A stretch of DNA of 64,000 nt from Spirometra erinaceieuropaei (taxonomy: Eukaryota; Platyhelminthes; Cestoda; Diphyllobothriidea; Diphyllobothriidae), in assembly GCA_902702965.1 (NCBI GenBank), contig CACRXP010001242.1, positions 51,430-115,429 on the forward strand, written 5' to 3'. A program made the translations under genes and the position numbers. The notes beneath the pieces were generated by a model. That model saw only the letters and a list, made by a program, of their open reading frames with translations, was not told the origin of the DNA and ran no database searches. Position 1 is the first letter of the stretch; every line of letters starts with the position of its first letter. Below are positions 903 to 59,955 of this stretch, piece by piece.

Positions 903-1043
903 TTCCGGGATCAAGTATATTCAAATTCGAGATATTCAATCTCACCAGAAGAGAGATACAAGCTATTCACTTCTCCGACCCAAATGCTGAAAGTCCACAA
1001 TTTTATATTCTTTATCGGAAACCTCTGACAAATCTGCCCCAAT
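903..1043 (+). CDS. Gene A exon D1 (X-domain third exon, 47 codons)
   Basis: The exon is 141 nt, phase 1 in and phase 1 out. The acceptor is TTTTCAG and the donor is gtacgt. It encodes VPGSSIFKFEIFNLTRRE and onward to FYILYRKPLTNLPQ. The gene B counterpart at 41767-41907 has identical length and phase, with mostly conservative changes (VPGSNIFKFEIFNVSKRD). It is also related to exons at 14570, 31939 and 53240, which share V-x-x-S-x-F-x-x-E-I near the start. NLT is an N-glycosylation sequon. Confidence 0.85.
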
Positions 1044-2735
1044 GTACGTTAAACGTACTGCGCCCTTAAACTGTGAAATCATATGCAATAACTATACTGC
1101 AATACATTGTTTAGAGGCCGCCTGGCGTGACATCGAAATTTCGTACTTGTTCTAAAACACTGTGACAGCAAACCTGAAACATTGATCCCAGCAGAGAATA
1201 TCCCTGAAGCGTTCAAAAAGCTTCAGGCGGGCGTTTCAAAGTCGCTGATTAACAGAAACCTAACGCTTATGAGTTTCATACTAGGCCTGGGAAGCTGGTT
1301 TACAAAATGTTTAATATACAGGCATCAACCGCAGCTTTCCACCGAAGGACCTTCTTTTATGTATGTTTGTGCAGATGCCAATTTTCATAATTAGGTGTCG
1401 TAATTATAACCCGATTTAGAGAGTCAGATGCCAGTGAAATTATTCCAAGTTCATTAAGTAATTGTCTTGCGCACAAATTATGAGCCTAATGCTTTTGTCC
1501 GCAAGATATTTGTTGCATTGCTGGTCAAATAACGTGAAAGAAACGTCTTCGCAAGCACATAAATAACTTTTATTCTTAGGTTCGTTCGTTTGAGGACGTA
1601 AAGTAAAATGTTAGTTATGATTCGGAAAGGCCCTTACAACTGGAAAGACAAATATAGGTGGGGTTGTGAAAGTAATTATCATGCCGCATAATCCTATAAT
1701 ATTTCGAACTCGCCACAACGTTGGTATCTGAATGCGCCTCACTTCGACCCCTATAGGAACCGCAGACTTAGCGCCACGCACTTTCACATTGGTTTTCGGT
1801 AGCCTTATAATTTCAAAAATATTTTATAGAAAACATGCAAAAAGCATGCACTGCTACTCCTCTGGTATAAATTCACGTCCTATTTTTATTTCGCAGCCGA
1901 AAAGGGAGTACCTTTTAGGTTTTAAACTTTCCAATTAAGAAATTTTGTAAGATTGTTTAATAACCATTCATTTAGCATTTTACCACTCCATTTATTAAAA
2001 TTTCTCATAAAGCATACAACAAAGTTTGCATCCACCGCAAAGTCTTATAAGCCCTGCATGATATTTTCTCAAAGACAGAGCGAGATGTGATTTTTATCAC
2101 GCATAAAGTCCGCACCCTACAGACTGAAATCGACAGACGCTAATGTAACGACCGATTCGGCTCAAAACCTTTCAGAAATTGGAAAACTTTACCAAAACCT
2201 TGTTTTGCTTTTCCCGCGAAACTGCATTGTAAAGAAAATACTGTTTTATACCAAATGAGTGAATGAATGCATATTTTTTGCACGTGGTGTCTATAAACTA
2301 TAAAATGTGCATAAGGTAAGCGAAAATAACTGTGAAAGGGGTTTAAGAATGTGCGGTTAAAAGTCAACTTCTGACAAGTCCAACATACTATGGGATTAGA
2401 CTGCTTGTCAGTTACCATTAAAATTCCACCAAAGTAATCATTCCTAATCTAAGACGCATTTCGTGGGACCGGCCACTGACTCTATCTCTGGCTGGCATGC
2501 CTATTTGGCATTTTAGTATTTTAATAAGCACTGCAAACTTACCCACTAATCGATCGAATTAAAACCTAGCTTGTCCATTTCATTCAATGTCGCATGGCAA
2601 GGAGCACAAAAACTTCGCTTTATAAATCATTCAGATCTTACATCCTTTTAGATTGCATCAAAATTTATTCTGCCCATATTAACCGTTTTTGTCTATTACC
2701 TGATAGAGATAATTAATGCGGCTTCATATTTTCAG
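1044..2735 (+). other. Gene A intron D1-E
   Basis: No coding exon is supported. About 1600-1950 resembles one diverged arm of the TIR element family seen at 24794-25313 (GGTTGTGAAAGTAATTATC, then CATAATCC). The remainder is AT-rich intronic DNA. The last ~100 bp before the acceptor is similar to the gene B intron. Confidence 0.5.
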
Positions 2736-2836
2736 TTCTGTTTTCACCGGAATTCTCCGCACCATTTGTCCACTGTCCACCACCCGCCTCATACAGTGCT
2801 GAAATCAGTTGCGCGACGTTCCAAAAACAACTGCTG
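2736..2836 (+). CDS. Gene A exon E (Y-domain first exon)
   Basis: The exon is 101 nt, phase 1 in and phase 0 out. The acceptor is ATTTTCAG and the donor is gtaata. It encodes FLFSPEFSAPFVHCPPPASY and continues to ISCATFQKQLL. The gene B copy (42823-42923) is also 101 nt, with Cys and the SAPFVHC motif conserved. Related exons at 16860, 32480 and 55044 keep a hydrophobic-PFV signature. Confidence 0.85.
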
Positions 2837-3403
2837 GTAATATGCAGCCCATTTATCTAAAATGATCTTTTCTTCAAGTTGTGATCCAAACTTTTACAGC
2901 GTACTCTAACAATAATGATATTTTCCTAAACTACGAAAGTCAACTCGCAAAATATCAGAGTTCGACTTTTGGACAATTAGACCTGCGCTTCAGTATAATC
3001 CAAATTTCAAATCAATGCTGGTCAACTATAATATCGGCCTTGCCTGGTTTAATATATTCCAGACAACTTTTAGGAACATGTAATGGTGTTTTCCGGCTTC
3101 TACTTTGCACGACTGTTTGTTGATTGTTGGGAATAATAAGGCATTTGGTCTTCATATTCGAGTCCTTTTATTCCGTTCTGTCTGGGGTTATCGGTTGGTT
3201 ATTTTTTCCGCAGTAGCCTTAGACGAATCACATTTGCAAGACTTTACAGGAATAGAAACGTATTTGGCCTTTTGGGTTAACTTTCTCAAAACTTCATTTT
3301 TCAGCAATCTGAAGGCTAGAAAACGCATATCGTCTATCTCATGTTGCCATAGTTATTCTAACGCAATGCTATATTTTCTTTGGAGAATTTGACAATTCAC
3401 AAG
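2837..3403 (+). other. Gene A intron E-F
   Basis: Sequence of 567 bp with no supported gene. Scattered similarity to the gene B intron at 42924-43511 is visible, especially in the 40 bp before the next exon. Confidence 0.5.
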
Positions 3404-3452
3404 GCAGACGCTGTTCTCTGCGGCGGCAAACGTGCTGGTAGTCCCAAATGCT
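3404..3452 (+). CDS. Gene A exon F (Y-domain Cys exon, 49 nt)
   Basis: Phase 0 in and phase 1 out; donor gtaagt, weak acceptor CACAAG. It encodes ADAVLCGGKRAGSPKC plus one base. The gene B counterpart reads GNTVLCDAKHAGSPKC in the same frame, so the frame and both Cys are conserved although the acceptor context differs. The last base plus the first two of exon A give Tyr. Confidence 0.72.
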
Positions 3453-5059
3453 GTAAGTTGCTATGAAAGTAGCTTATTTTCTTATTTAATTGTTCTGGAT
3501 TCACTGTGAGTTCAGGTGACACTCAAATTTCCTCATGCGCAGGGGTTACGCCCCTTCAGCGCTTTTACGCAATTTACTCCGTTTCTGTTCCGTTAACTGC
3601 GTTAGTCATGCCGAAAGACTAAGTCAGTAATCAACATAATCAAGCTTTACCCTCGGCAAAAAGCTCCTAGTCTTATTAACGGATGTGTAAATTTCAGTTC
3701 TTGCATTTGGGGTACTAGCCGACAGATTATTTCGACCAACTGTGATCTAGGTCGATGGAACATGTCGGGCACTAAGCACATATGGGCAACAGACAGCAAA
3801 CCTACCAGGCATATCAAAATGCCTTTTAATCGCCTCAATTTGTCCCGTAATGCAAAATTTTTGTAGACTTACTAAGCTTCTGATTATGGATGTTTGGGAT
3901 TTTATTCAAAAATCTGGACCGAATCGAACCCATCTTAAAACTGCCTTTTTTCTTTTTGGCTTTTACTCTTTGGATTGACACGCCCACTGCAGTCATATAT
4001 GAAAAACAGTTGGGCATTCATCGTTCTCCATTATTTTAATTCTCTAAACAAATAATCGAAATTGTGTCATCGCTGATAATCTACAGTGCCTAGTCGTTAA
4101 ATTGTAAATAGGCATGTGGCAATCTTCTGTCAACTCAGACTGAAAGCTGAGTAGAGGACAGAGGGGATCACTTTGCACAAGTGGAGGGAGAAACTGCGTG
4201 CTAGAAATCACGCCAGTCCAGAAAACTTGTTGATCTTCCACATCTCAGTGCTAAATGGTCCTCTGGATGTGCTCTTCTCTATATGCAGCATTCGGCCTTC
4301 TGGTTTGTCTTTAAGCTTTACAAAACGTGCGGACAATTGAATTCTCAGGAGATACCGGATGTGTCGGTCTTCCGGTCGCTTGTGCAATATGAATTCTCAG
4401 CAGGGTTCCCACTACTTAACGTGACTACCGGGGAGGGTTATATAAATGAAATAAATCCTCCGATGTCCTTAAACGGAACGTCTTTGCTAATTCTGGAAGA
4501 TTTACGGATCATGACATGTTATTACACCACGTTTGACAATTTTTTTAACGCAGACCAAAGAAAACAGGGAAACTTGAGTTGAGCAGTAAAATCGAAATAC
4601 CGACCCTGTCTACTTGCTTTGATTCCCCAGCATACAGATATGTACTTTATTTTTGAACAGCCCCACCAATCATATGTAAGGTGACATTTGCTAGTCAGTC
4701 ACGTGGTGTTTTAAATTGTAAGAATGAGACAGAAAAGACTGGGATCTCCTATTCTAAAGCAGTCCAATATTATTAGAAAGGCACGTTAATAGAATGTATT
4801 TCAAGTGGTAGTCGCAATTGATATGACAGATTTATCGTTTTGTGGTTTACCTACGCACATAGTTTCTGAAAAAGACTTAAAAGCCTCTCATCTAGTAAGA
4901 CTAAAACAGGAATCCAAGTGAAACTGTCGTATTCTTGTATGAAGGGGACGCAAAACTAAAACGATTCGAGTCAGACGCCGTCTTAAAACTTTTTTGGGGT
5001 TTCACAGAATAGTCATTTTTTGTAAATATAAAATTGTCTAACGAGGAATTATTTCTTAG
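3453..5059 (+). other. Gene A intron F-A with empty PLE target site
   Basis: No exon is supported. At about 4304-4320 the sequence TTTGTCTTTAAGCTTTACA is the uninterrupted equivalent of the site where the PLE sits in gene B (44282-45913). The open frame at 4283-4582 has stop codons in the paralogous copy and is treated as chance. Confidence 0.6.
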
Positions 5060-5206
5060 ACACGACGGAAGAAGTTCTTAGGACAACTGTGCGTCAGCAG
5101 ATATACAAAACCCTACCAACGGACCGGTTTGTATTCGTTACGTGCAAATTAACGGTTGGAGATCAGAAAGGCTACATGACGCATCTGATTGATTTTGGCA
5201 GAAAAG
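5060..5206 (+). CDS. Gene A exon A (Y-domain third exon, 49 codons)
   Basis: The exon is 147 nt, phase 1 to 1, with acceptor TTTCTTAG and donor gtaagt. It encodes a segment with RFVFVTCKLTV and GYMTHLIDFGRK. The gene B copy (46630-46776) has the same length, and in the second half most differences are synonymous, indicating purifying selection. The (L/I)-(I/V)-D-F-G ending recurs in the exons at 19599, 36174 and 59411. Confidence 0.88.
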
Positions 5207-5389
5207 GTAAGTGGAGACGATATAATTTGAAATTTTCCATCCGAAAATTTCCTACTTACATACCCAGGTCGAGGATTCAAATCGACAAGTACCAGCAAAT
5301 AGCTTAATAAGCGGCCTTGATTGACTATACAGTTAGTTACAAATTCTTCAAGGCTGTGTGTAGATGTCATTTTTGGAAGACCAAATAAC

Positions 5390-5900
5390 ATTTACAGGTG
5401 TGCTAAGTCATGAAATTTTAACCAAAGCTATGAAATGTGTTTTTGGTTAGAAAAGGCTACTTAAGTAGGATTGTAATAGTACTTTTTTTGCAGCATAATC
5501 TCAAAATATTTCGATTACTTCAGGATGCCGGCTTTCAAACGAATTTATTTCCGGCCGTCTGCAAAAAATAACACTCGTAAAAAGGGCCGCTTATGTAAAA
5601 TTTGATGCTCTTATTGATTTTTGGTGCCCTTATGAATTCAAACATATTTCGTGGAAAACATATATAACAGTATTTCTTTTCTACTGATTTGATATAAAAT
5701 CACCTATTATTAAAATTTTATTCTCAAGGAACTAGCTTAATTTGGTTTTAAAAAACGTTTCTAATAACGAGATTTTTTAAGATCGTTAAATGGCATGCCA
5801 TTTGGAAAGGATTCCCTCCGTTGGTAGTTCATAGGCATCAGATTTCTCAGTTCCCTATTTAATCTTAGCCGACTCTAAAGTTCATAGCATAGACTATATC
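5390..5900. repeat. Diverged TIR element, one arm
   Basis: GTGCTAAGTCATGAAAT, AAAAGGCTACTTAAGTAGG, TTGTAATAGTA, GCATAATC and CAGGATGCCGGCTTTC occur in the same order and spacing as in the TIR family at 50580-51574. No clear second arm is visible. Confidence 0.55.
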
Positions 5901-6970
5901 AAGGGTCTTAGAAAAACCCGGGCAGCTGAAAAATGTTGTGAACAGGACAGGCGGAACCCTTAATGACCCTCTTCAAGGACAGCTAGGATTATGAATGTAA
6001 CTATATACAACCAGTATAAAATAAAGTCTTTTCTGATGTCTACGAAAAAATATCGCTAAAAACGTGTAGTGACAGGATGCATATTAAATAAAATGAGGAA
6101 GCAAAGTTCATGAGTGGCCATAGATAATCCTGCAATGAGAGACGTCGTTCGTCAAACGTCAAACGGTCTGATTGTCTTTTGAACACAACCATGGTGTCAA
6201 AAGTCATTATTGCATTTACGAGTAAGGTTCCACGATCGAACTGCCTGTTTACTGAGAGAAAGCTTTTGTTGGTCGAGGTGCATACATTTGCGTTGAACCT
6301 TATACGGCCGACCTCTCAGGCGACTCATGCTTCCTAACTCGGAGAAATCTTCAAATTAAAGCCAAAACTCGTGTCCGCAGATAATGCGGACTGTCCACAG
6401 AAGGTTGAACCTCATCTGCCTGTAGGATATTAGAAGCGAGTACGGCTTCACCAGTCTTCCGAGATATCAGTGACTTCTAATGCCGTATACCAGTCTTATT
6501 GTCCGTCGTTGCACCTGCTTCATGGGTTCACTGTCTTTCTTTATCCCTGGCAGCTTGGCTGGTCTAACGAACTTATCAAGAATCCACGCGACCAGTTTGG
6601 GAGGAAACGTCGCGATAGTACGCCTTATTCATGACGTCATGCTCGTTGTTCTCTGGACAACTCTTTTGCAGTGTTCAGAGGGCAGGAAATTTGAAGCTGT
6701 CCAAATGCCTAGGTCATTTGTGTTTATCCACTTCTTTTAATGAAAATCCACTTAACTGGCACGGTTGTCTTGGGAAACGTCTCTGAGCAACTTCCTAGCG
6801 TAAGACTATACATTTGGATGCGTTGAACGGCAGACGTTACTTGACGGACTATGTAGACAACTTATCGGCGTTTTCTTGTAGTTTCTGTGCACCATCAACA
6901 CACCAGATTGTTTTCCATATTTATTCACTAGCTGCAAACGTGATGGCATGGCAGCCAAGATGCTCTGTGC

Positions 6971-7217
6971 TGGTAGAGGGGCGTTCACCGATAGTTTCTA
7001 CGGAACTCACTAGCCCCGTTGTGCCTTAGGGATCTCTCTCGTGACCAACCAGCAGCCGCACAGCGGCGCATGATATATTCCATTCCAGTCTCCCTGGACT
7101 TTGTCAGTAATACCATTCTGCCATTATATCATGCGCCGTTGTGCGGCTGCTAACTGGACTCCAAAGAGCCCGAAGGAGTGAGTTCCGTAGAAACGATCGG
7201 TAAGCACCCCTCTACCA
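6971..7217. repeat. Nested inverted repeat in the LINE remnant
   Basis: Outer arms start TGGTAGAGGGGCGTTCACCG (6971) and end with the near reverse complement at 7217. Inner arms, CAGCAGCCGCACAGCGGCGC (7048) and GCGCCGTTGTGCGGCTGCT (~7134), are near-perfect. A CAGCGGCGCGA-type fragment also occurs at 42428. It interrupts the LINE between its RT parts. Confidence 0.7.
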
Positions 7218-7247
7218 TTGTTTATTCCCGATGGCAATTGAGGGAAG

Positions 7248-7400
7248 AACGGGCCCGTGGCCCAGTGGTTAGAGTCGTGAGCTTCTAACTAACAGGTTGC
7301 GATTTTGAGCCTCGGGTGTTCCACATTTTGGGGTTGGGTATGACTGGCTGATGACGGCTAATAAGCCAAAAATGGCCATGCCAATCTCCCTTTTCTATGT
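7248..7400 (+). mobile_element. tRNA-derived SINE (head and partial body)
   Basis: GTGGCCCAGTGGTTAGAG resembles a pol III A box, and GGTTGCGATTTTGAGCC a B box at the usual spacing (~30 bp). The following body (GGGTTGGGTATGACTGGCTG, then ATGACGGCTAATAAG) recurs at 42540-42600. The acceptor-stem ends do not pair and there is no CCA-type end, so this is a SINE, not a functional tRNA. Confidence 0.6.
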
Positions 7401-9856: not shown

Positions 9857-9871
9857 ATGCCTACGATATAG
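9857..9871 (+). CDS. Gene A micro-exon 1 (15 nt)
   Basis: ATGCCTACGATATAG lies between TTTCAG and gtaagt. It enters and leaves in phase 1, adding A-Y-D-I after the Asp formed at the junction with exon A. The gene B copy (48424-48438) differs by one base (D to E) and keeps both splice sites inside otherwise diverged introns. Confidence 0.78.
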   Translation: MPTI

Positions 9872-10670: not shown

Positions 10671-10688
10671 GCAAAGACGATATCGATG
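10671..10688 (+). CDS. Gene A micro-exon 2 (18 nt)
   Basis: GCAAAGACGATATCGATG lies between ACTTAG and gtaagt, phase 1 to 1. With the preceding G it adds G-K-D-D-I-D. The gene B copy at 49217-49234 encodes G-K-E-D-I-D. Conservation of an 18 nt acidic exon with both splice sites in diverged introns is strong evidence. Confidence 0.78.
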
Positions 10689-11013: not shown

Positions 11014-11108
11014 AAACATGGGTCCACCTTGGTCTCGTTTACAATGGAACTTACCAACGTAATTCAAGTGCCGACTACTTCTATGCTTTCATGGATTTCA
11101 GGCCGAGG
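11014..11108 (+). CDS. Gene A exon B (X-domain first exon)
   Basis: The exon is 95 nt, phase 1 to 0, with acceptor CTTGTAG and donor gtaggc. It encodes (E)TWVHLGLVYNGTYQ and then YFYAFMDFRPR. NGT is an N-glycosylation sequon, also present in gene B (49562-49656). Two other 95 nt exons in gene B (30583 and 40944) are paralogous, sharing D/N-x-T-F/Y near the middle and an F-x-P ending. Confidence 0.85.
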
Positions 11109-13880: not shown

Positions 13881-13959
13881 TATTTCAGGTGGTTTTACCG
13901 AATGGATGGCGAAAAATGTATTGGCGGCACGCAGAACCTTACATGCAAGGTTCGAAAAG
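13881..13959 (+). CDS. Gene A exon C (X-domain Cys exon)
   Basis: The exon is 79 nt, phase 0 to 1, with acceptor TGTTTCAG and donor gttaga. It encodes YFRWFYRMDGEKC and NLTCKVRK. The two Cys match those in C2 (41159) and in the F exons. NLT is a glycosylation sequon. The gene B copy at 52529 is one base longer. Confidence 0.85.
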
Positions 13960-14569: not shown

Positions 14570-14710
14570 TTACTGGATCTTCCTTTTGGCGCGTGGAGAT
14601 CAGATCGCCTGAATCACTAGAAGCAAGCGAACTGTTATTCCAAGACACAAGGCCTCATCCTTCGAGACGATACATCATGTACAGCACTCCTTTCACTTAC
14701 AAGACCGAAA
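14570..14710 (+). CDS. Gene A exon D2 (X-domain third exon)
   Basis: The exon is 141 nt, phase 1 to 1, with acceptor CCAAACAG and donor gtgagt. It encodes VTGSSFWRVEIRSPESLEAS and an IMYSTPFTYKTE end. It has the same length and pattern as D1, so it is an internal duplicate. The gene B copy is 53240-53380. Confidence 0.87.
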
Positions 14711-16859: not shown

Positions 16860-16969
16860 GTCGCTTTCTCCTCGAACTCTCTCACCCCTTTGTCCATCAC
16901 GCAACTAAATGTTCATCTGCCTCGATCAGATGTGCTTTTGAACACAAGGGGGAAAGCGAACATGTTCGG
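16860..16969 (+). CDS. Gene A exon E2 (terminal Y-domain first exon)
   Basis: The exon is 110 nt, phase 1 to 0, with acceptor TCCCTCAG and donor gtatgt. It encodes RFLLELSHPFVHHATKCSS and IRCAFEHKGESEHVR. The gene B copy at 55044-55153 has identical length. The HPFVH block matches APFVH in exon E. Confidence 0.85.
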
Positions 16970-19452: not shown

Positions 19453-19516
19453 TTCAGGCTTTACACAAAATACCGGACGATTTGTGGAATCGGCCATCGA
19501 GACCTGCCACCTTGTA
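19453..19516 (+). CDS. Gene A exon F2 (terminal Y-domain Cys exon, 64 nt)
   Basis: Phase 0 to 1; acceptor GATGTAG, donor gtgagt. It encodes FRLYTKYRTICGIGHRDLPP ending in Cys, with two Cys as in C and F. The gene B copy is 59265-59328, same length. Confidence 0.83.
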
Positions 19517-19598: not shown

Positions 19599-19762
19599 AA
19601 AAGGTGGTTTTCGACACCGAGGCTGGTACTGTTACGGTGACTGCTGATGTTTACAGGGGCGATATTAATGGAGAACGGTATGGGATTTTTACTTGTGAAT
19701 CAAAGGACCTTGAGGATCTCCATCACCTGGTTGATTTCGGACACGACAACGTCGCAGAATAG
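19599..19762 (+). CDS. Gene A exon A2 (last coding exon, TAG stop)
   Basis: Phase 1 in. It encodes KVVFDTEAGTVTVTADVYRG, RYGIFTCESKDLED and LHHLVDFGHDNVAE, then TAG at 19760-19762. The LVDFG block places it as an A-type exon. The stop abuts gtaagc, a good donor, so the exon most likely ends at the stop and splices to a 3'UTR exon. Confidence 0.87.
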
Positions 19763-20048
19763 GTAAGCATTTGGAAAGAGGTTGTAAAATTAACATTAAC
19801 AATTTAAAGTTTGGTGAGGAATGACGCAATAAGTCTGTTTTTAATCATTTACAGAAGGTTTTGAGCAGGTTTATCCTTCCCTAGCAACCTTTGCTAAAGC
19901 TGTAACAACTGTAAGGCTTTATATATTTTTATGTAATGAAGCAAATACTTCAAGTGTATCAACACATGTCATTTATTATTATCATAAAAAGATTGCCAAC
20001 TGGAATTCTATCAGGCGTCATAACGAATTCTCATCTTCCATATTTCAG
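19763..20048 (+). other. Probable 3'UTR intron of gene A
   Basis: Begins gtaagc and ends TATTTCAG. The same arrangement is seen in gene B (59575-59856). Confidence 0.6.
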
Positions 20049-20150
20049 TCATTCGGCCTCGACGGGAGGAGAAAAACAGACGTGGAAAGTTATTTTAACT
20101 GTTTTGATGTCTTCTGTCTTCAGACTAAATAAAACATGAAATTCCTTCCC
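20049..20150 (+). other. Probable 3'UTR exon of gene A
   Basis: Starts TCATTCGGCCTC after TTTCAG; the gene B equivalent starts TCATTCAGCCTC. It ends shortly after AATAAA. Confidence 0.6.
20128..20133 (+). promoter_or_regulatory. Polyadenylation signal, gene A
   Basis: AATAAA in the context CTAAATAAAAC; gene B has AATAAA in the same context (59936). Confidence 0.7.
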
Positions 20151-29206: not shown

Positions 29207-29227
29207 ATTTCACCGGAACTACAGCTG
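29207..29227 (+). CDS. Gene B micro-exon (21 nt)
   Basis: ATTTCACCGGAACTACAGCT followed by G, between TTTTTTCAG and gtatgc, phase 1 to 1. It encodes F-T-G-T-T-A and joins exon B1 in frame (Ala at the junction). It takes the place of the 15+18 nt pair in unit 3. No second copy exists in the window to confirm it. Confidence 0.62.
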
Positions 29228-30582: not shown

Positions 30583-30677
30583 CCAACGAAGAAGGACTTT
30601 GCAGAAGCTTTGATGCAACTTTCGCGAAAACCGAAGAACCGCAGACGCTCCGGCTGTACACGGATTTCGTTCCTGAT
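30583..30677 (+). CDS. Gene B exon B1 (unit 1, X-domain first exon)
   Basis: The exon is 95 nt, phase 1 to 0, with acceptor CATCTTAG and donor gtaagt. It encodes (A)NEEGLCRSFDATFAKTEE and LRLYTDFVPD. It has the same length as all other B exons, and F-D-A-T-F and D-F-V-P-D match Y-N-G-T-Y and D-F-R-P. Confidence 0.78.
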
Positions 30678-31938
30678 GTAAGTTTGCATCTTGATAAAGC
30701 TCGCGTTTGGGTCACTTATAATTGCGTTAAAGTCATGTAAGTAACTACCCTGTATCAAGACAATTTCATACAAATAGCGCTAGTTTTGACCTCTACGAGA
30801 ACTGTGGTAACAATTTTTGCGCAAATAGAATGCGTAAGCAGTGGATGAAGCAGATACCGCCTGACGATGGACCTGCTCCTTATAAGATTAAAGAACGAGC
30901 TTGTTAAAATTGGACACATTAGAAACAAATTATGACGATAATGTGTCTCGATAGCGTTCAGACTTTTAACACATCGGGTTCATTAACGGAGTTTAGGTAA
31001 TGGTGCTGCATCTTACCCATTTTAGTTAAGGATCGGGTTAAGGTCCCCAAACATCTGTGACATGCAAACACTACCTACTTATTGAAGTGGATTTAGGTCC
31101 GGCACGATTGCTTCGGCTTGGTGTTTCATCGTATAAGGTTGGGTCGTCTGTTGTAGACGGTCTGGTGCATAATCTACAATGACCTCAACCCAGAGAGTTG
31201 AGAAGCGATCGTTGTAGACAACTACAGTTTGTTTTTTTAATTTTCCTGATTACTTTGGCTGCTACGTGTTAATGCATTTAAACTTTTCTGACAGAAAAAC
31301 AAATCTACTAACTACCTATATGTATTTAGCCATTCCTCTATGCGTACATAGACCTCGCTCGTAAAATCCATATTACCACATTCCCCGTAAGACAGGCACC
31401 CGTAAAATCCCTATTACTACATTTCCCGTAGGACAGGCACCTTTGGCTGGTCGTGTGTGTTTGGGGGCCTTCTCCCGATCGTCGCCCCATTTTATACTAA
31501 AAATGCACGACGAAAAGTTGGGACTAGGAGGGCTGATTTTGACCATCGTGTTTCTTACTTCTATGACCCAAAAGTAGCTGTGCTCCTAATATGCCTTTTT
31601 GTGATTTCAGAATGCATGGTTTTCGACTTTTTCATTTAAGTCCACTGATCCAAAGCGAAACCTGTTTGTAATGATTGCTTCTTTACCTGACTTCTCATTT
31701 TGAAGAGAGTAAGGATTGGGACTCTGGAACTCAACTTAGGAGAAAATGACTGTACCTACGAAAATCAAGTTTATTCATGCCGACTGATTCAGGGTAAGGA
31801 ATGGCGCTTTTCATCACTATATTACCTGAAAAAGAAGGATTAGTAGAAAAGAAATATGCGCTAGAACCTTTGGAATTAGGCAGATTAAAATTCTTTAAAA
31901 TATCCTCCAACGGCTGATTGTTATGTTTCCTCGAATAG
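30678..31938 (+). other. Gene B intron(s) B1-D of unit 1
   Basis: A C-type exon (phase 0 to 1, two Cys) is required here but not convincingly found. A 41 bp tandem duplication lies at 31361-31441. Confidence 0.45.
31361..31441 (+). repeat. Tandem duplication of a ~41 bp unit
   Basis: GTAAAATCC(A/C)TATTAC starts each copy and GACAGGCAC ends each copy. A handful of substitutions separate the copies. Confidence 0.85.
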
Positions 31939-32076
31939 TGCACGAGTCCGGTTTTTGGAGTTTTGAAATCGATGGCATTGTGACAGCCGATCTCAAAAAT
32001 GTTGTGCTATCTTCGGATTCGGAATACATTCCACCAGTTGCCATCCAGGCTCGGCCACTTGCTGACAAAGTTGAAG
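31939..32076 (+). CDS. Gene B exon D (unit 1)
   Basis: The exon is 138 nt, phase 1 to 1, with acceptor GAATAG and donor gtgagt. It encodes VHESGFWSFEIDGIVTADLK and ends LADKVE. It aligns with VTGSSFWRVEI of exon D2. It is one codon shorter than the other D exons. Confidence 0.78.
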
Positions 32077-32479: not shown

Positions 32480-32592
32480 ACAACATTTTCCTTCGATCAT
32501 CCGCTCCATTTGTGATATGTCCAAGGCTCGAACAAAAAGGCGTCGACGTTGACTTCGTCTTTCCAGCCAGTATTTTGGATCAGTCTGTGAAG
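32480..32592 (+). CDS. Gene B exon E1 (unit 1)
   Basis: The exon is 113 nt, phase 1 to 0, with acceptor GTCTAG and donor gtaaga. It encodes (D)NIFLRSSAPFVICPRLEQ and ends LDQSVK. SAPFV-x-C is identical to exon E. It is diverged but has an intact frame. Confidence 0.75.
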
Positions 32593-36173: not shown

Positions 36174-36329
36174 AAAACGAAGTACATGACAGTGCGCGCT
36201 CAATGCTGACGGTTTCCCTTCACGTTACGAGGTTTCAAGCCCCAAGCAAGCGCTACAGAACTGTGCGTGCAATCGTTGTCCAAGGAGAAACAAAAAACAT
36301 CCTAACAAAAATTGTTGACTTTGGTTCAA
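36174..36329 (+). CDS. Gene B exon A1 (unit 1)
   Basis: The exon is 156 nt, phase 1 to 1, with acceptor GCTGTAG and donor gtgagt. It encodes NEVHDSARSMLTVSLHVTRF, RYRTVRAIVVQGE and LTKIVDFGS. The A-type ending DFG is present. It can join exon B2 directly in frame (Thr at the junction). Confidence 0.8.
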
Positions 36330-40943: not shown

Positions 40944-41038
40944 CTGTATGGGATCCGATATGCAATACATACGACGGCACGTTTTCTTTCGCTGAGGAAC
41001 CAACGGACATAACGGCGTACCTTCCATTTAAGCCGCAG
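40944..41038 (+). CDS. Gene B exon B2 (unit 2)
   Basis: The exon is 95 nt, phase 1 to 0, with acceptor TTTTCAG and donor gttagt. It encodes VWDPICNTYDGTFSFAEEPT and AYLPFKPQ. It is paralogous to exons B and B1 (YDGTF against YNGTY). Confidence 0.8.
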
Positions 41039-41158: not shown

Positions 41159-41243
41159 ACAGTCGTGATCGGACATGCTTACACCTTTACCAAAAATAAA
41201 TGTCAAAGTGAAAATGAAGTCCTTCAGTGTAAGCTGACTAACG
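41159..41243 (+). CDS. Gene B exon C2 (unit 2)
   Basis: The exon is 85 nt, phase 0 to 1, with acceptor TTTTTAG and donor gtacgt. It encodes TVVIGHAYTFTKNKCQSE and VLQCKLTN. The two Cys match KC...LTCK in exon C. Its last G completes the Val codon of exon D3. Confidence 0.8.
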
Positions 41244-41766: not shown

Positions 41767-41907
41767 TTCCGGGATCGAATATATTCAAATTTGAAATCTT
41801 CAACGTCAGCAAAAGGGACATTCAAACTATCCGCTTCGATAACTCAGATGTCGAAAGTCCACAGTTCTATATTCTCTATCGGAAATTGCTGACCAGTCTT
41901 CCACAAT
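41767..41907 (+). CDS. Gene B exon D3 (unit 2; counterpart of gene A D1)
   Basis: The exon is 141 nt, phase 1 to 1, with acceptor TTTCCAG and donor gtgcgt. It encodes VPGSNIFKFEIFNVSKRDIQ and ends LLTSLPQ. NVS is a glycosylation sequon at the same place as NLT in D1. Confidence 0.85.
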
Positions 41908-42822: not shown

Positions 42823-42923
42823 TCCTGTTTTCACCGGAATTCTCCGCACCATTTGTGCACTGTCCACCACCATCCTCATACTACACCGACGTCAGTTGCA
42901 CGACCTTCCACAAACAACCGTTG
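42823..42923 (+). CDS. Gene B exon E (unit 2)
   Basis: The exon is 101 nt, phase 1 to 0, with acceptor ATTTTAG and donor gtaagc. It encodes LFSPEFSAPFVHCPPPSSYY and ends TFHKQPL. It is nearly identical to gene A exon E over its first half. Confidence 0.85.
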
Positions 42924-45780: not shown

Positions 45781-45793
45781 TCTGCAACTGTCT

Positions 45794-45900: not shown

Positions 45901-45913
45901 TTGTATTTAAGCT
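45901..45913 (+). repeat. Target-site duplication, right
   Basis: TTGTATTTAAGCT, identical to 44282-44294. Confidence 0.85.
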
Positions 45914-46629: not shown

Positions 46630-46776
46630 ACATGATGGAACACGATAATAGGATATCGGTGCGCCAACACGTGTACAAGGCCCCAACAACGAACCGGTTT
46701 GTATTCATAACGTGTGAATTGACGGTTGGAGATCAGAAAGGCTACATGACGCACCTGATTGACTTCGGCAGAAAAG
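46630..46776 (+). CDS. Gene B exon A (unit 2)
   Basis: The exon is 147 nt, phase 1 to 1, with acceptor TTTTTAG and donor gtaagt. It encodes RFVFITCELTVGDQKGYMTH and LIDFGRK. Differences from gene A in this half are mostly third-position. Confidence 0.87.
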
Positions 46777-48423: not shown

Positions 48424-48438
48424 ATGCCTACGAAATAG
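48424..48438 (+). CDS. Gene B micro-exon 1 (15 nt)
   Basis: ATGCCTACGAAATAG between TTTCAG and gtaagt, phase 1 to 1. It encodes A-Y-E-I. One substitution separates it from gene A. Confidence 0.78.
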   Translation: MPTK

Positions 48439-49216: not shown

Positions 49217-49234
49217 GCAAAGAAGACATCGATG
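49217..49234 (+). CDS. Gene B micro-exon 2 (18 nt)
   Basis: GCAAAGAAGACATCGATG between TTTAG and gtaagt, phase 1 to 1. It encodes G-K-E-D-I-D with the preceding G. Confidence 0.78.
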
Positions 49235-49561: not shown

Positions 49562-49656
49562 AAACATGGGCCCATCTCGGCCTCGTTTACAACGGGACCT
49601 ACCAAAGCAAATCAGGCGCGGACCACTTTTATGCCTTCATGGATTTCGAGCCGAAG
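49562..49656 (+). CDS. Gene B exon B (unit 3)
   Basis: The exon is 95 nt, phase 1 to 0, with acceptor CTTGTAG and donor gtaggc. It encodes (E)TWAHLGLVYNGTYQSKSG and HFYAFMDFEPK. The NGT sequon is conserved. Confidence 0.85.
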
Positions 49657-50125: not shown

Positions 50126-50560
50126 TAGGTGCGCTCTCTCATGAAATTTCAACAGAAATTTCGAAATTCGCTTTCAACTTGAAAAGGCCACTTGGGTAGG
50201 ATTGTAGTATTGATTATCCTTTAGCATAATCCAATGAGATTTCAGTCGTCCTTAGAATGAGCTCCTTTCTGACTGTCGGAAAGAACTGCATTTTGCAAAA
50301 AGGCTACATAAGTGCTTTGGATTTTTCCAATTGATCTTCGGTGTCTATATAAATTCAATTATATTTGATAAACGACATGCATAAAAGCGTCCTTCTAATA
50401 GTGAATAACGTCTTTTATCAAATTTAACAATCGAAGATAGGTATCATTCGACTTCAAAAAATTCCTAATTATGATGTTCTTAAGACCGTGAAATTTCCAT
50501 TCACACAACATCATATTGGCACGCTTAACATTGCTTCTTATAAAGCACACGACTTGATCC
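50126..50560. repeat. Diverged TIR element, one arm
   Basis: TAGGTGCGCTCTCTCATGAA, CACTTGGGTAGGATTGTAGT and following sequence match the family left arm. No clear right arm. Confidence 0.55.
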
Positions 50561-50579
50561 ATATCCAATGGACAACTCT

Positions 50580-52528: not shown

Positions 52529-52608
52529 TATTTCAGGTGGTTTTATCGCATGGACGGTGAAAGTTGCATTATCAGCACACACAATTTTACGTGCAAGATT
52601 CGAAAAGG
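52529..52608 (+). CDS. Gene B exon C (unit 3), +1 length change
   Basis: Acceptor TTTTGCAG and donor gttggt, with the same borders as gene A exon C. It starts YFRWFYRMDGE identically, but an extra base after GGTGAAAAG makes the exon 80 nt instead of 79 and shifts the frame. Ignoring that base, the frame would restore two Cys and an NFT sequon. It is a sequencing or assembly indel or a real frameshift. Confidence 0.65.
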
Positions 52609-53239
52609 TTGGTGATAAAAATATGTTAGTTTAATATGTATGTATGCATAGAATCTGCTAACAGTGCGTCTTTCGGAATTTTCCCTCGGACCAAATCAAG
52701 TATTTTGACTGCTGACAGTATATCGTCAAATTATTCTCTATGCCACCTATATTGATGCCTAGTTTACTGAATCGCTTAGGTCATTTATGTTTTATCCAAT
52801 GCGTGTTCCTGTTTTGCGTTTCTTTTCGGTGTCAAGTGGTGCTTGCCATCGAGCGCAAGTAAAATTTGTTGCATATTTTTTCGTCATCATTGACCGATAT
52901 TACAAACTCAGAGCAGCTCCCGAGATTCAGTTGACGTTAGTAAGCCGGTAGGCTTTAAAGTCAAAAGCTTTTCCGCCTGAACTAAGGGCCCCATATCCGG
53001 TCGACTGGGATCAGAAATGTCTGAGGTCACATGTAGTTAAGTTTAACGAATTTCTCCGTATTTGCTGAACGAAAAATATCATATTCGCTTCTGGAATATT
53101 CCGGGTGCAGAAAGCACAAAATATGTCCGGGTCTGTCAAGTCATCCTACTTGTTTTAACAAAAACTGGCAATGCGGGCTTGCGTTGCAGCCAGTAAACTC
53201 TATTGACAGCATAAGTCTGATTATTATTCTTCCAAACAG
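52609..53239 (+). other. Gene B intron C-D
   Basis: A 631 bp intron similar in size to gene A. Nothing else is seen. Confidence 0.5.
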
Positions 53240-53380
53240 TTGTTGGATCATCCTTCTGGCGCGTGGAGATCAGATCACCCGAAGCTCTAACGGCAAGCGA
53301 GCTGTCATTTCAGGACTCAAAGCCTTACCCTTCAAGACAGTACACTATATACAGCACTCCTTTCGCTGACAAGACCAAAG
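53240..53380 (+). CDS. Gene B exon D (unit 3)
   Basis: The exon is 141 nt, phase 1 to 1, with acceptor CCAAACAG and donor gtaagt. It encodes VVGSSFWRVEIRSPEALTAS and ends YSTPFADKTK. Confidence 0.86.
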
Positions 53381-55043
53381 GTAAGTGATTTCTTAAACAT
53401 ATCCATATTTTTTCTTCAATAAATCAGCACTCATGCTGCAATATGCGTGTTATTTATTATTGTTTTTGACCTGCCACATCTCGTTAGTATAGACAGGCAA
53501 TTGGTGGTGTGTGGAGATCGAAGAACAATCGCCTGAGAAGTGTCCTTGGGGTTTCATGCATTCCGCTTTTCTTCCAGATCATATATTCTAGACACCAGGG
53601 ATGGGAAAATTTTACGTGATGCCAGCGCCTTATGAGGTATTCGGTAGATAATTTTAGACAACGTTCTGGGATAGACTGATCAAGGTAGAAGAAGCTCGAG
53701 CACTTGGAACGCGGTAGATTTCAAAAAGAGTAAAAGTCAAAACAAAAACCGAACTTTCCATCCCGGAGACCAAGAATTTTTATTTTGCCAAAGCGGTTCA
53801 AAAAGATACTTTAGAAAATCATTTGATCAACCACTTGTGTTGAACTACTTCACGTATAAAGACCATTTTGACGGATCATTATTTAGACTAGACTGTGAAG
53901 CTTATTGGTATAGCAGAATTAGCTGTCCAAAGCCTGTCGGGAGGAATCTTTAGGGACCACGTGTGAGATTTAAAACTTTTGAAACCGAACAAAAAAGTTT
54001 AAAGTCTCAAAATAAACGTTTCTGAAAAACGACCCTAAAAATGAAAACCTACTTGCATCAAATACCGCATTTAAAAGCCATTTCACTTTACAGTGGAAAT
54101 AATACATGTAAGGGACGATAGTGCTGAACATTTTGAATTTATTATTTCAAAATAGAGCGAATTTCTCTCTCTCTCTCTCTCTGATACAACATGACTGCAC
54201 TTCTCACACTCCAACAATCAAGTGAATAGCGCACATTGCATGGAAGGATTTTGTGATCTAGCCTTACTATAGTAACTGGATGAAAGTTCGACACTTACTG
54301 ATGCAGCCCATATTTCGCGATTTCTACTGAAGCATGTTAGTAGAAAGATTTTTCTGGGAAAAGTGACAGAATTCCGCGTAGGAACGTGCTTTGGAGAATG
54401 CTGGCTCTTTATTAGGTAGCCGGCGTCATTTGGTATGCGTTGAGTCAAATGCTGAACCCAGGTTGTCATCCATGTGCGTTGACCTGAAAATGTGTGATTA
54501 GGTAGCTGAGTGAGGTCAAAAACTTGCTTCATGTTTAGATCATGTTGCAGAAACGAGCGAACGAGTCGACTAATTCCCGTTATTTCCTTCTATGTGGGCT
54601 GGGATGGACTGGGCCCCTCTATCGAAATCCCAACCGTTGGCACCGACACTTGGACGGGTGTTGGTTCTTTGTAATTCCCAGGAACAACAAAATGGTCTCA
54701 ATGATACTTTGTTAATAAATTATTACGAAATGTGGTCCTGTAGCCCAAACTAACCTTTCCACGGGTCGTTTGGACTCAACTTATGAACATGTATGTGTTT
54801 TGCCAAAGTAATTACCGTGTCCCTCCAATGTTTTCGATAGATATTTTGTCCATTGTTTAGCAAAGAACTCGCATGGAACTTGTGAACAAATCAAAATTCC
54901 TAAATGCAAACCTCTTCAAGCGATTGTATTTCAAGTGAAGTCTTAATTCTGTTTATAAGGACTACTATCGTCGATCGAGCAGTATGTTTTATGCCGTATT
55001 TAACAAAGACCACACGCAAAGCTAAAGTGTGCCTTTCTGTTAG
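53381..55043 (+). other. Gene B intron D-E2
   Basis: No exon. A short (CT)n run at ~54161-54181. The ACT-repeat block of the gene A intron is absent here. Confidence 0.5.
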
Positions 55044-55153
55044 GTCGCTTCCTCCTCGAACTCTCTCAGCCTTTTGTCCACCACGCAACAAACTGCTCAA
55101 CTATCTCGATCAAATGTGCTTTTGAGCACACGGAGGAAGGTGAACACGTTCGG
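55044..55153 (+). CDS. Gene B exon E2 (terminal Y-domain)
   Basis: The exon is 110 nt, phase 1 to 0, with acceptor TCTGTTAG and donor gtatgc. It encodes RFLLELSQPFVHHATNCST and IKCAFEHTEEGEHVR. NCS is an extra sequon relative to gene A. Confidence 0.85.
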
Positions 55154-55589
55154 GTATGCCTATGTTAATTAATTAGAACGAGGATTTTATAAATACTTGA
55201 CAAACGAACTACGCAGTCGCGATTGCATAAATCGGCCAAAAGACCCTTTTTTCATGAGACTATTTATTACTCTTGGGCAGGTATACGACAAATCTCAATT
55301 ATTCACGGGATTTTGCAATAAATATGGATCATTCGCATGGAAACATGGATATAAATATGCTGAAATATTTTACCAACCTGAATTAAAACAGTCACCTTTG
55401 TGCAAGTATAAACCAACACACACCAGCACATTTTAATGATCTATATCACTTTTGCGCCTGGCGTTTTCGCCTCCCGTGAATTTAAGAAGAACCACTTTTC
55501 CAATTAAAATATCGAAGACGACACGGAGTCTTGAAGCCTAAAAGTGTGTAAAAATCGTCTTGTTGGGACATGGATTGCCAATAAACTAA

Positions 55590-56575
55590 GTCTTGTCAAA
55601 CGATAAGGTTTATGCTATGCCGCCTTATGAAAAGTTAATTGGGATTCTGAAGTGTATCTTCAGTTCGAGAAGATTCCATAAGTATGGGTGTCATAGTAAG
55701 TATCTCGCCGCAAAACTTTAAGATAATCCAGTCGGCTTCCGTACCAGTTTCTTATCAACCGCTTGCATAATCTATTTTCGGCGAAAGATGACTGCCTAAA
55801 TGGCATGGATTTCTCCCACTAATATTTGATATCCTTATAAACACATGCAAAAAATATTCTTCTTAGGCTCGACTGTTAGCAAATCACGCCTTTTTAAAAT
55901 TTTACACTTGAAGAAAGAGTATATTTCGGTTTTGAAAGCTTTCTCAATCCCCGAATAATTTTGGTCTCAATCTGCCATCACACTTGAATTCAGGGTTTCC
56001 GAACTTCAAGCTGTATACCTTTTGTGTGAATAAAAGTCATAGATTTCTATATACTGTTAAGAAGAAAACACAAAGGATTCATGAAACTTTGCAATGACTC
56101 TGGACGGCATTGTCTACTTTATAAATAACAACAATAAATGAACTGACGCGGTGCTGTACAACCGGACATTTCTCGCTCCTGTAAAAGCCCTTACTGAGAA
56201 AACCTTTTATAACCAAAGGGAATTCGTCCTTCAAGGATATAGTTTAAAGAATATGCCGTGTGCTATCAAACGAGTAAAAAAGGATTAATTTTGAGCATGT
56301 TTTCAATAAAATATATTCCAATTTATTAAGACCTCGAAAATCAATGAGGGGGGCTTCACGCTATATATGCAATCATTTTTTACAAAAAAGTAATTATTGT
56401 AGGCAGCCGATAAGGAACCCCTTCAAAAAACGGCATCCTGGCGTGACTAAATTATATTTAAATTGTACGACACGCTAATTGGCATGAAAACCACACTTAA
56501 GTCATCCTTTATAGTTGAAAAAGCACTTGAAAATTTCAATTAACACTTTATGAGATAGCAAATGTACTGTCATAT
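55590..56575. repeat. Decayed ~1 kb TIR element
   Basis: Left arm pieces at 55650-55740 (AGTATGGGTGTCATAGTAAG) and right arm pieces at 56430-56570 (AACGGCATCCTGGCGTGACT, CACTTTATGAGATAGCA) follow the family order. Confidence 0.55.
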
Positions 56576-56799
56576 TGGACTAACCCAGATTAGCTTCCTT
56601 ACGTGTGTGTTTGAAATGTGTAATAACTGGTAGCCGTACCCCTCTCCCCAGCTGCTATGCAGTTTTACTAGCCTTCTTCGTCAAATTAGCTTATTATCAG
56701 TACGGAAAATAAACTCAAGCTGGGAAACGTTCTTCGGTCGTTTTGACAGGAGAAAATGAAAACACTCATTTCCCTCCCCTCCGTGACAAAACAACAGCT

Positions 56800-59075
56800 G
56801 GGTGCCTCGCGCCTCATCACACCAGGATTACACAATGTCCTTGATAGTTCTGCTGAATATCGTCACTCTGCGACATTCTGATCTCTTTCCACATAGCATG
56901 CTTCTCCATCCTTCTTTTGCTAGGACGATCATGGTCTCTACAAGCGAGTGCTAGGTCATGACGCTTATACGTTAGCGACGCACATCCAAGTCGCGGTCTG
57001 CGCGTTGCCAGATGTGGCGTCCGGTTCACTCGAGTTGTCTTGTCATCTGCCTCCCCGCTTCTCTGATGTGGTTGTGCTTTATGTGCTGTTGGCAGCAGGT
57101 CCCTCCAGACGGTCAACAGTTCTTTAAGCGGACTAGACAGAACATAAAATACTCCCGAAGCGATTTACGAGGCCAGGTCGCAAAGTAGACGTGCGTATGA
57201 ACACTTATATAGAGAAAGAAATAAAGAGATCTATCAACGCTGTTACAAAACCCTCCATAACTCCATCAGGGGTTAGCGGTGCGCAGAACTTACGAACCTC
57301 CAGTAGCGTGCATTCGACATGTAGCAGGGCAATGTTGATCTGATGGCGAGATGCAGACTTGCGACCTGTGCCCAAATAACAAGGCAGCCAGTGATTGCAA
57401 CACTTACCCAATCATTGTGATGTCCCTTTTCATCGATCATACTGACGGACACCAAGTAACCCACACAGATAATTCATGAGACCGAAAGCAAGACGATGTC
57501 CACCGTTCGCTGCAGGGTATAGTGGACATAGGGTGGCAATTTGCATCCACTTACCGACTTCCGCATCATCTCTCACCCTCCAGAGTCCGGTGGGAAGACA
57601 CAGTCAGGGCTCTACCGCAGACGGGTTTGGACGCAACGACCGACAAAGCTAAACTGCCCGTCTGTGTGTGCCACAGAAGAACTGGCCCGACCACAGTGGG
57701 CCGACTTGCGACAGAACAAAAGGGGACGACTTGTATCCCACCTGAGTGGGAGTGCGCTAGAGACCATTTTCAGAAAAAAGTCATTGCCGCCTTGCTGTCC
57801 GTCCTTACAGTAGGACTGAATTAGTCTGCTAGGTCCGTCATGGTAGATTCAAGCGTCTCAGACGTTATAGTGCAAAATGCGCTGAAGTGCTGTGGGGACT
57901 CGACTGCAACCTCTCATCTACCTCTCAGACATCATTTCGCTGTCCGTACCTGTCAGCTATCTGGTGCTCTAACTGGACGTAAATGCATGGCGCGTCATGA
58001 AACCTGCGCCTAGGCGTGCAACCACAGCCCCCTAAATTTAGCACTTTTTATAGGATATGCAGCCCGACTAATGCGTGCCCCGTCCGATCCTGCCTCCTTG
58101 TGCTGGTCCGGCGTATCTCTTGTGTGTCCCGTTGCGGGAACACTCGAGTGACCCGAGAGCTACCTGCCATGTCATTAAAAGCCACATGTCATCATTCGTG
58201 CCATCCTGTGTTAGTGAGATGGAAGACCTGGTCATAACTGTAGCGGCGTTCGAAACAGCACACCAAGACAATGTAGATGAGGGATCCTCTGCCTCTGATA
58301 ACCGGCCAATTTCCGACGTCCACATGACAGTTCGACCGTCGGTTTCGCCGATGTCCACCGTGTGCTGCACCAGGAGGGTGGGGCAGGGACGGTGACTTGT
58401 GCGAAAATTTAGTTTAGAGTGATAGTAGACTTGCGCAGTATCTGTCGCACTCTCTTCTCCTCCCCTATCTGGACCCGTTGTTAAAACAAATTCAAGGAGA
58501 CCAGAGGCAGGGGGTGGCACAGGTGGATGGCGCGGCCTAACCCGCACCTTGACGTTCCACTCCACACCCCCTGGTCCACAGAACAAATGACCAGGTCCTT
58601 GATTAACAGCAACAATGGGTGGTGGCGGGGGCCCAGCGTGCGCGACGTACGCCGGCAACCGGGTCCGCCACCGCACCCCAAAACGCAGGCATTTGTTACG
58701 GTGCGCAAAGCCGATAACGCCTGCCAGAATCCGATATGCTCCCCCCGTGTTGGTCCAGCGCAACTACCACATGGCCCGTTTGGGGTGCACTTCCACTCAC
58801 CCCCCCACACAAACATACACGACGGCTCGACCGTCGGCTTCGACGGTGCTCCAAATTAGAGGGAGTGCAGCGATGGTGCCTTGCGCGTGAGTTAGTTTGA
58901 AGTAGCAATAGGCTTGCGCCGCATCTACTGCACTACGGCAACCAGGTCCGTAGTCAAACCCCGAACTTTTGGCATTTGTTACGGTGCGCAAAGCCGATAA
59001 CGCCTACCAGAGTTCAATATGGACCTCGTGTTAGCCCAGCGCATCTACTACGTGGCCCGTTTGGGGGGCACCAAC
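56800..59075. repeat. GC-richer repeat block, gene B copy with internal duplication
   Basis: 56800-58260 matches gene A 17900-19200. 58290-59075 contains local duplications: TTTGTTACGGTGCGCAAAGC at ~58691 and ~58977, and GACCGTCGG(T/C)TTCG at ~58336 and ~58828. Overlapping open frames here are not conserved and look like GC-driven artefacts. Confidence 0.65.
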
Positions 59076-59264
59076 GTCGTCATACAACTTGACTGACAAA
59101 CACGCCTAAAGTCAAGGTGGCGAAGCACAAGAGCTTGCTCACGTATGAGTCGGTATGAGACAGTATGAGACTGTCACTGAGGTCATTATTAGTTGAATCG
59201 ATTTACATTGGAACTCTCTGTGTGAGGGGACACTTTTTAACATAATTCTCCTATTCCGTTGTAG

Positions 59265-59328
59265 TTCAAGGTTCACACAAAATACCGGACGATATGTGGA
59301 ATCGGCCACCGAGACCTGCCTCCTTGTA
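59265..59328 (+). CDS. Gene B exon F2 (64 nt)
   Basis: Phase 0 to 1; acceptor GTTGTAG, donor gtgagt. It encodes FKVHTKYRTICGIGHRDLPP ending in Cys. Confidence 0.83.
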
Positions 59329-59410
59329 GTGAGTGCTTTGAGTTTGCTACGCAAACCTTTGTCAGAGCATCAGTGACCCTTCTAATTATCTAACCTCGTT
59401 TATTCTCCAG

Positions 59411-59574
59411 AAAAGGTGGTTTTCGACACCGAGGCTGGTACTGTTACGGTGACTGCTGATGTTTACAGGGGAGACATTAATGGGGAGCGATATGGGATTT
59501 TTACTTGTCAATCCAAAGACCTTGAGGATCTCCATCACCTGGTTGATTTCGGACCCGAAAACGCCGCAGAATAG
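59411..59574 (+). CDS. Gene B exon A2 (last coding exon, TAG stop)
   Basis: Acceptor TTCTCCAG. It encodes KVVFDTEAGTVTVTADVYRG and LHHLVDFGPENAAE, with TAG at 59572-59574 abutting gtaaac. The first ~60 nt are identical to gene A. Confidence 0.87.
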
Positions 59575-59856
59575 GTAAACACTTGGAAAAAGGGTGTATA
59601 ATTAGCGTTATCAGTTTAGTGCCTATTGGTAATTTATTCCATAATCCTGTCTTCAGCCATCTTCAGAAAGTTTTGGGTTTGTTCAACATTCCTCAACAAA
59701 TTCTGCTATGACTAAACCATTGCTGTATAAAGCTTTATATGTTTTTTGTCCAATGAAATACTTTAAATTTATCAACGCATGTCATTTGTTCTCGCAAGGG
59801 GCTCTAGAGCTGGCATTCCGTCAGACCTCAGAAAGAATACATACTTTCTCTTTCAG
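59575..59856 (+). other. Probable 3'UTR intron of gene B
   Basis: Begins gtaaac at the stop and ends CTTTCAG, parallel to gene A. Confidence 0.55.
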
Positions 59857-59955
59857 TCATTCAGCCTCAAAAGGAGAAGGAAAACAGGCGTTGTAGTTCC
59901 TTTTTACTGGTTTGGTGTATTCTCTCTTCATATTAAATAAAACTTGTAATTCCTT
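59857..59955 (+). other. Probable 3'UTR exon of gene B
   Basis: Starts TCATTCAGCCTC and includes AATAAA at 59936-59941. Confidence 0.58.
59936..59941 (+). promoter_or_regulatory. Polyadenylation signal, gene B
   Basis: AATAAA in the context TTAAATAAAAC, parallel to gene A. Confidence 0.7.

Follow-up and report, generated by a model that had tools for sequence, protein, structure and literature searches.

The 64-kb window analysed here, that is, 64,000 nucleotides (nt) of contig CACRXP010001242.1 of the cestode Spirometra erinaceieuropaei (positions 51,430 to 115,429 of the forward strand), carries two colinear genes on the plus strand, hereafter designated genes A and B. Self-comparison of the window revealed them as a tandem duplication (849–20309 against 41713–60112), in agreement with an initial annotation of the same DNA, which had proposed a same-strand pair. 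Gene A runs from 903 to 20.1 kb, with its 5' end beyond the window, and gene B from 29.2 to 59.9 kb; the coding part was modelled with 12 exons in gene A (903–19762) and 21 exons in gene B (29207–59574). Both genes encode repeats of a two-domain unit, X-Y, and would give rise to secreted glycoproteins.

A search of 5.77 billion proteins found six homologues, all from Spirometra/Sparganum, and no orthologues in cestodes outside this group; the protein collection was clustered at 90%, and the search needs shared five-residue words, so that distant kin may be missed. P0001 (SprV_0401456000) and P0004 (SprV_0401455900) belong to Sparganum proliferum, P0003 (AAHC03_09241) to Spirometra sp. Aus1, and P0002 and P0005 are unnamed products of S. 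erinaceieuropaei; the sixth is designated P0006. P0003 and P0005, which are 97% identical to each other and 62–71% identical to the A and B copies, represent a third paralogue, C. Of the orthologues in other cestodes that the initial annotation had named as possible support, those of S. proliferum were obtained, and both Spirometra sp. Aus1 and S. erinaceieuropaei yielded the third paralogue, in keeping with a cestode origin. The family is most likely genus-restricted, as judged from these matches.

Exon structure and X-Y modules

Exon borders were read from the aligned blocks of the two copies and then checked by script (Table 1). An AG acceptor and a GT donor flank all 33 modelled coding exons, the frame is open, and the splice phases chain from exon to exon; AG/GT borders were selected as such, so that the borders alone make no independent test. 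The 12 exons shared by genes A and B are all equal in length, which bears out the matching lengths, phases, and borders described initially, whereas the exon range of 49–156 nt given there is replaced by 64–164 nt, micro-exons aside. Both coding parts end with a TAG stop (19760–19762 in gene A and 59572–59574 in gene B) followed directly by GT, the sequence being GTAAGC or GTAAAC. About 0.3 kb past the stop, near 20.1 kb in gene A and 59.9 kb in gene B, lies a conserved piece containing AATAAA. This piece is likely a 3'-untranslated exon.

One X-Y module comprises about 212–219 residues encoded by six exons, with the phases 1-0, 0-1, and 1-1 occurring twice over: exons p, q, and A form domain X (105–107 residues), and exons B, C, and D form domain Y (105–112 residues). 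The alternating extracellular-type domains of the initial annotation were retained, but not their size of about 90 residues. Gene B has three X-Y modules, of which module 1 (30583–36329) and the 21-nt micro-exon preceding it (29207–29227) are additions to that annotation. Gene A has two (modules 2 and 3), judged from P0004, and within the window its module 2 starts at the last X exon. The 15- and 18-nt micro-exons, already described initially and now located in both genes, sit between modules 2 and 3, and from this position are read as a short hinge between the two. Since whole modules are of class 1-1, shuffling or skipping them would leave the frame intact, and the same is true of the micro-exons and of exons A and D taken singly.

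Profiles of X and Y, built from the window exons and the homologues, recovered all 13 X and all 14 Y open frames of the window, a recovery given by construction. On neither strand did anything else pass the inclusion threshold, which is not so given; exon C2 of gene A fell below the threshold with a joint X-Y profile (E 0.054). The two domains are alike in having three exons with phases 1-0, 0-1, and 1-1, the middle one of which holds a C-x8/9-C pair; against a common origin of X and Y, profile comparison by hhalign did not support their homology (probability 0.1%). In a FastTree tree of 11 modules, the module 1 copies grouped by position with a support of 0.998 and the module 2 copies with 0.997, inner supports falling to 0.32 and 0.46. 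Because module copies cluster by position and not by gene, the multiplication of modules would predate the divergence of the paralogues.

We regard the gene structure as modelled as practically certain. Two observations at the gene ends weigh on the other side. In the P0001 model, the last exon is apparently spliced at an earlier point and the frame would continue into the likely 3'-untranslated exon, a possible end that is unlike P0004 and unlike the open frame of the window and was not adopted in the gene models. Moreover, no signal-peptide exon was found for either gene within the window: a scan with the N-terminal peptides of P0001, P0003, and P0006 against about 20–30.7 kb, and with that of P0004 against 1–905, yielded no exons other than p1 and the 21-nt one at 29207. 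A run of 996 N bases occupies 26890–27885 upstream of gene B; as a guess, the signal-peptide exon of gene B may lie inside this gap and that of gene A to the left of the window.

Table 1 Modelled exons of genes A and B, with positions in the window.
Gene	Exon	Domain, module	Phases	Positions	Strand	Remarks
A	A2	X, module 2	1-1	903..1043	+	141 nt
A	B2	Y	1-0	2736..2836	+	
A	C2	Y	0-1	3386..3452	+	
A	D2	Y	1-1	5060..5206	+	
A	mE			9857..9871	+	15-nt micro-exon (DAYDI); identical residues in P0004
A	mF			10671..10688	+	18-nt micro-exon (GKDDID); near-identical in P0004
A	p3	X, module 3	1-0	11014..11108	+	
A	q3	X	0-1	13881..13959	+	
A	A3	X	1-1	14570..14710	+	
A	B3	Y	1-0	16860..16969	+	
A	C3	Y	0-1	19453..19516	+	
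A	D3	Y		19599..19762	+	TAG stop at splice border
A	likely 3'-untranslated			20048..20135	+	AATAAA; ends approximate, by eye
B	micro-exon			29207..29227	+	21 nt (DFTGTTA); DFTGATA in orthologue P0001
B	p1	X, module 1		30583..30677	+	exact in P0006; acceptor a few bases downstream possible
B	q1			31706..31793	+	
B	A1			31939..32076	+	exact in P0002, P0006
B	B1	Y, module 1		32480..32592	+	exact in P0002, P0006
B	C1			36026..36089	+	followed by 84-nt intron; junction matches P0001, P0002, P0003
B	D1			36174..36329	+	
B	p2	X, module 2		40944..41038	+	
B	q2			41159..41243	+	
B	A2			41767..41907	+	
B	B2	Y, module 2		42823..42923	+	
B	C2			43495..43561	+	
B	D2			46630..46776	+	
B	micro-exon			48424..48438	+	15 nt (DAYEI)
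B	micro-exon			49217..49234	+	18 nt (GKEDID)
B	p3	X, module 3		49562..49656	+	
B	q3			52529..52607	+	
B	A3			53240..53380	+	
B	B3	Y, module 3		55044..55153	+	
B	C3			59265..59328	+	
B	D3			59411..59574	+	TAG stop at splice border
B	likely 3'-untranslated			59857..59944	+	AATAAA; ends approximate, by eye

Coding integrity and paired cysteines

The comparison of genes A and B points to selection on the encoded proteins. Thus, the ratio of nonsynonymous to synonymous substitution rates (dN/dS) was 0.248 over the 12 shared exons and 0.244 without the last two, and no gap was found in 1142 exon columns, whereas the 7493 non-exon columns had 151 gap openings, these columns being those of blastn-aligned stretches, with unaligned intron left out. 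Identity was 82.8% in exons and 67.4% in non-exon columns. Neither gene contains a premature in-frame stop, whereas the other two frames hold 9 and 16 stops in gene A and 22 and 34 in gene B; random non-coding pieces of the same lengths (2000 draws) averaged 20.2 (minimum 6) and 35.5 (minimum 20) stops, respectively. These values make both genes look functional and under purifying selection rather than products of chance.

Two features would suit the alternative that the pattern is a decayed duplication of pseudogenes, namely the retroelement fragments around and inside the genes and the tree branch of gene A, which is longer than that of P0004 (0.159 versus 0.048). With stops and frameshifts absent, exons free of insertions and deletions, and the dN/dS value given above, such decay appears extremely improbable. 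Around the C3-D3 border (about 19471–19650, including the 82-nt intron), the identity between the copies rises to 95–100%, compared with 62–76% in 60-base bins outside 19471–19770; the high-identity block covers 19439–19720 in gene A and 59251–59532 in gene B. Because the rise spans the intron too, this block is likely a gene conversion tract.

The cysteines follow a paired pattern. In 11 of 11 tabulated modules, the two members of four column pairs are both present or both absent: pair 48-57 occurs in every module, 7-122 is missing from module 3, 134-200 is missing from module 1 (being found in Y2 and Y3, not in Y1), and 157-167 is missing only from module 1 of paralogue C. A ninth cysteine column, 126, is confined to module 3 of genes A and B, where it is left unpaired. 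The co-occurrence suggests up to four disulfides per module, of which 7-122 would join X to Y. The prediction is weakened in that the 11 modules are related by descent and modules 2 and 3 of paralogue C are composites (X of P0003 plus Y of P0005). The initial annotation had assumed fixed cysteines and fixed N-glycosylation sequons; the cysteines are indeed fixed by position, but among the sequons only NGT of exon p3 is constant, in all seven sequences holding this exon (genes A and B and P0001–P0005), and the others vary.

Homologues and fold searches

The database homologues contain the same exon-derived peptides as genes A and B, including both hinge micro-exons in P0001, P0003, P0004, and P0005 and the first one only in P0002. 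P0002 holds 15 of the 21 exon peptides of gene B exactly (border codons excluded; one peptide has only 4 residues), as befits a window from this species or the same genotype, and gene B is 89% identical to P0001. The locus tags of P0004 and P0001 are adjacent, as are genes A (left) and B (right) here. P0004 is taken as the orthologue of gene A because the tree joins them with a support of 0.996; its nearly equal identities to gene A (83%) and gene B (82%) tell against this assignment.

In P0002, P0003, and P0006, exons are absent or joined otherwise than in the window genes, which counts against our models: exons A2 and mF are missing from P0002 and part of exon B2 from P0003, both of which also end differently, and P0006 runs from B1 to q2. 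These deviating models may be mispredictions or isoforms. According to the available parts of the two genome reports, the Aus1 gene set, including P0003, was obtained with BRAKER, which was supplied with sparganum RNA along with proteins from the two other species (PMC12249497), and the annotation in PMC8166898 with Augustus and RNA-seq hints. As support for the homologues, both have their limits, since the RNA-supported share of Aus1 genes (about 72–78%; PMC12249497) is a set-wide figure and not one for P0003 itself, and P0001 and P0004 (SprV entries), placed on an 85-Mb contig, may or may not stem from the PMC8166898 annotation. All database entries of the family are hypothetical or unnamed, without description. 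A literature search for four locus-tag strings of the family found no publication, the accessible portions of PMC8166898, PMC12249497, PMC4265353, and PMC7653826 make no mention of the genes, and our search terms had no match in the main text of the excretory-secretory proteome paper PMC13104597, which has no bearing on the genes. The egg protein CP391S, considered as a lead, was dropped after the literature on it yielded nothing testable.

As the initial annotation had it, the family is unrecognised, with no match above the cut-off in Pfam or the PDB. The joined proteins A and B (B in its first model version) gave no Pfam match at E up to 5, and no match passed the cut-off in a scored Pfam scan of nine proteins or pieces. 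Below threshold, Ig_VWDE (PF25776) was aligned to Y3 at an equal offset (positions 8–40 in both the profile and the Y3 domain) in P0005 (E 0.0035; 17.7 bits versus a cut-off of 28.1), in P0003 (E 0.008), and in Y3 of gene B alone (E 0.07), and it matched one member in a scan of the 11 modules (E 0.0023; bit scores not listed). However, Mu-like gpT, a phage head family, reached 3 of the 11 modules (best E 0.0049) and P0004 (E 0.034). Because so implausible a family attains similar values, the Ig_VWDE match may be due to chance. HTH_NWD1 (one of the 11 modules, E 0.12) and DUF4333 (Y2 of gene B, E 0.26) also remained below the cut-off.

Structural searches gave little more. A sequence search of the PDB returned two bacterial chains (E 0.98–0.99), and the module profile found no PDB match. 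An AlphaFold2 model from five sequences was poor, with a mean predicted local distance difference test score (pLDDT) of 34, and its 17 strands and 3 helices are nearly no evidence at this level. Foldseek found no match to the model with E below 0.09; many of the best 50 of 929 matches (E up to 10) were immunoglobulin (Ig) V-type, the best with E 0.095, and are not counted as support.

The cysteines offer a further, ambiguous clue. An Ig disulfide joins cysteines about 55–75 residues apart; columns 134 and 200, 66 alignment columns apart in Y2 and Y3, might correspond to such a bond, and X has no such pair. A G-x-F-T-C motif in Y3 presumably resembles an Ig F strand. We tentatively consider X and Y to be Ig-like beta-sandwiches, with weak support; our estimate, at first evenly balanced, was lowered to slightly below that because the phage family reached a similar E-value. 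Alternatively, X and Y might be a new non-Ig extracellular fold, and the proteins might build internal matrix, eggshell, or tegument material. This would accord with the failure of any family to pass its cut-off, the curated score of Ig_VWDE included, and with the restriction of the family to one genus group, but the Y2/Y3 cysteine pair and the F-strand-like motif speak against it, as does, for the little it is worth, the strand-rich model; we consider it rather unlikely.

Other sequences accompany the genes. Short related fragments lie 3' of both (20640–20920, 62260–62500, 63120–63400, and 63380–63560), and some of their frames (VNVDGHGKYGACKGQ, VNVEDHGKYGSYQAQ) resemble the end of an Ig domain and are interrupted by stops. 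Retroelement fragments with reverse-transcriptase and GIY-YIG-like frames (44479–45600 and 60285–61464), which we take to be Penelope-like, occur together with traces at 1–151. Mutually related inverted-repeat pairs in introns and between the genes (50579–51574, 24794–25313, and 11543–12541) look like a small transposon family. By eye, a degenerate TTTAGGG/TTAGGG-like tract at 29500–30100, within the intron that precedes module 1 in gene B, is like an interstitial telomere repeat. The window gave no Rfam match at the gathering score.

Probable secretion, proposed role and comparison with known systems

In P0004, the three most hydrophobic 19-residue windows begin at residues 1, 2, and 5, and no other window scores above 1.33. 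Because the N terminus is hydrophobic and no stronger hydrophobic stretch occurs elsewhere, the proteins are quite likely secreted and not membrane-anchored; together with the paired cysteines and the sequons, the plain reading is that they are probably secreted glycoproteins. Lineage-restricted, duplicated secreted glycoproteins are common at the host-parasite boundary. Presumably, the two intact tandem genes encode secreted glycoproteins in which each X-Y unit would be locked by up to four disulfides, one tying X to Y. The protein would resemble beads on a string, with two rigid units in gene A and three in gene B, the last being set off by a short acidic hinge that the micro-exons encode. 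Such a string might bind an extracellular ligand, most likely at the host-parasite surface. This host-facing binding or decoy role, proposed by analogy with such proteins and not from measurement here, is a possibility to which we give clearly less than even weight. Collectively, intact genes for secreted, perhaps Ig-like, host-facing multidomain glycoproteins form the explanation that we moderately favour. In a more speculative and distinctly improbable reading, X and Y would be the halves of a new extracellular fold that originated in the Spirometra lineage, and in-frame skipping of exons A and D and the hinge micro-exons, all of phase 1-1, would yield secreted isoforms that differ, at the surface of the host, in their reach and in the faces by which they bind.

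The analysis supplies the exon logic of a probably secreted family, detected here in the Spirometra group alone, for which the database models P0002, P0003, and P0006 are incomplete. With a predicted disulfide map and domain borders, clean recombinant modules can be made, on which the fold, the ligand, and the value as a sparganosis antigen can be tested directly.

Parasites have many lineage-specific secreted proteins of repeated domains, and genes A and B are of that kind. With regard to Ig_VWDE, Y3 is the only domain matched among the proteins scanned, and the other VWDE domains were not seen in them. P-ISF (plerocercoid-immunosuppressive factor; orthogroup OG0000083), as described in the available part of PMC8166898, is, as the products of genes A and B probably are, a secreted Spirometra glycoprotein, and it is cysteine-rich. 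Compared by family size only, its orthogroup is much larger, with at least 17 S. proliferum genes versus the two S. proliferum proteins found here in the 90%-clustered collection, and membership of our genes in the P-ISF family seems very improbable.

The kinship with flatworm micro-exon genes that the initial annotation had perceived did not hold up either. In the accessible text of PMC7653826, such genes comprise 7 or more exons, of which no fewer than half are micro-exons (shorter than 70 nt and divisible by 3), with a run of at least 4. Genes A and B have enough exons (12 and 21 modelled), but in the modelled parts, whose 5' ends are incomplete, micro-exons make up only 2 of 12 and 3 of 21, and the longest run is 2. 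Extra short peptides at the N termini of P0001 and P0006 may represent a few more micro-exons, and the symmetric 15-, 18-, and 21-nt exons, the large introns, and the probably secreted product would all befit this class; given the counts, it is nonetheless very unlikely that the loci belong to it. Genes A and B share short symmetric exons and, probably, secreted products with flatworm micro-exon genes, but differ from them in that micro-exons are a small minority and the bulk of each gene is a repeated domain.

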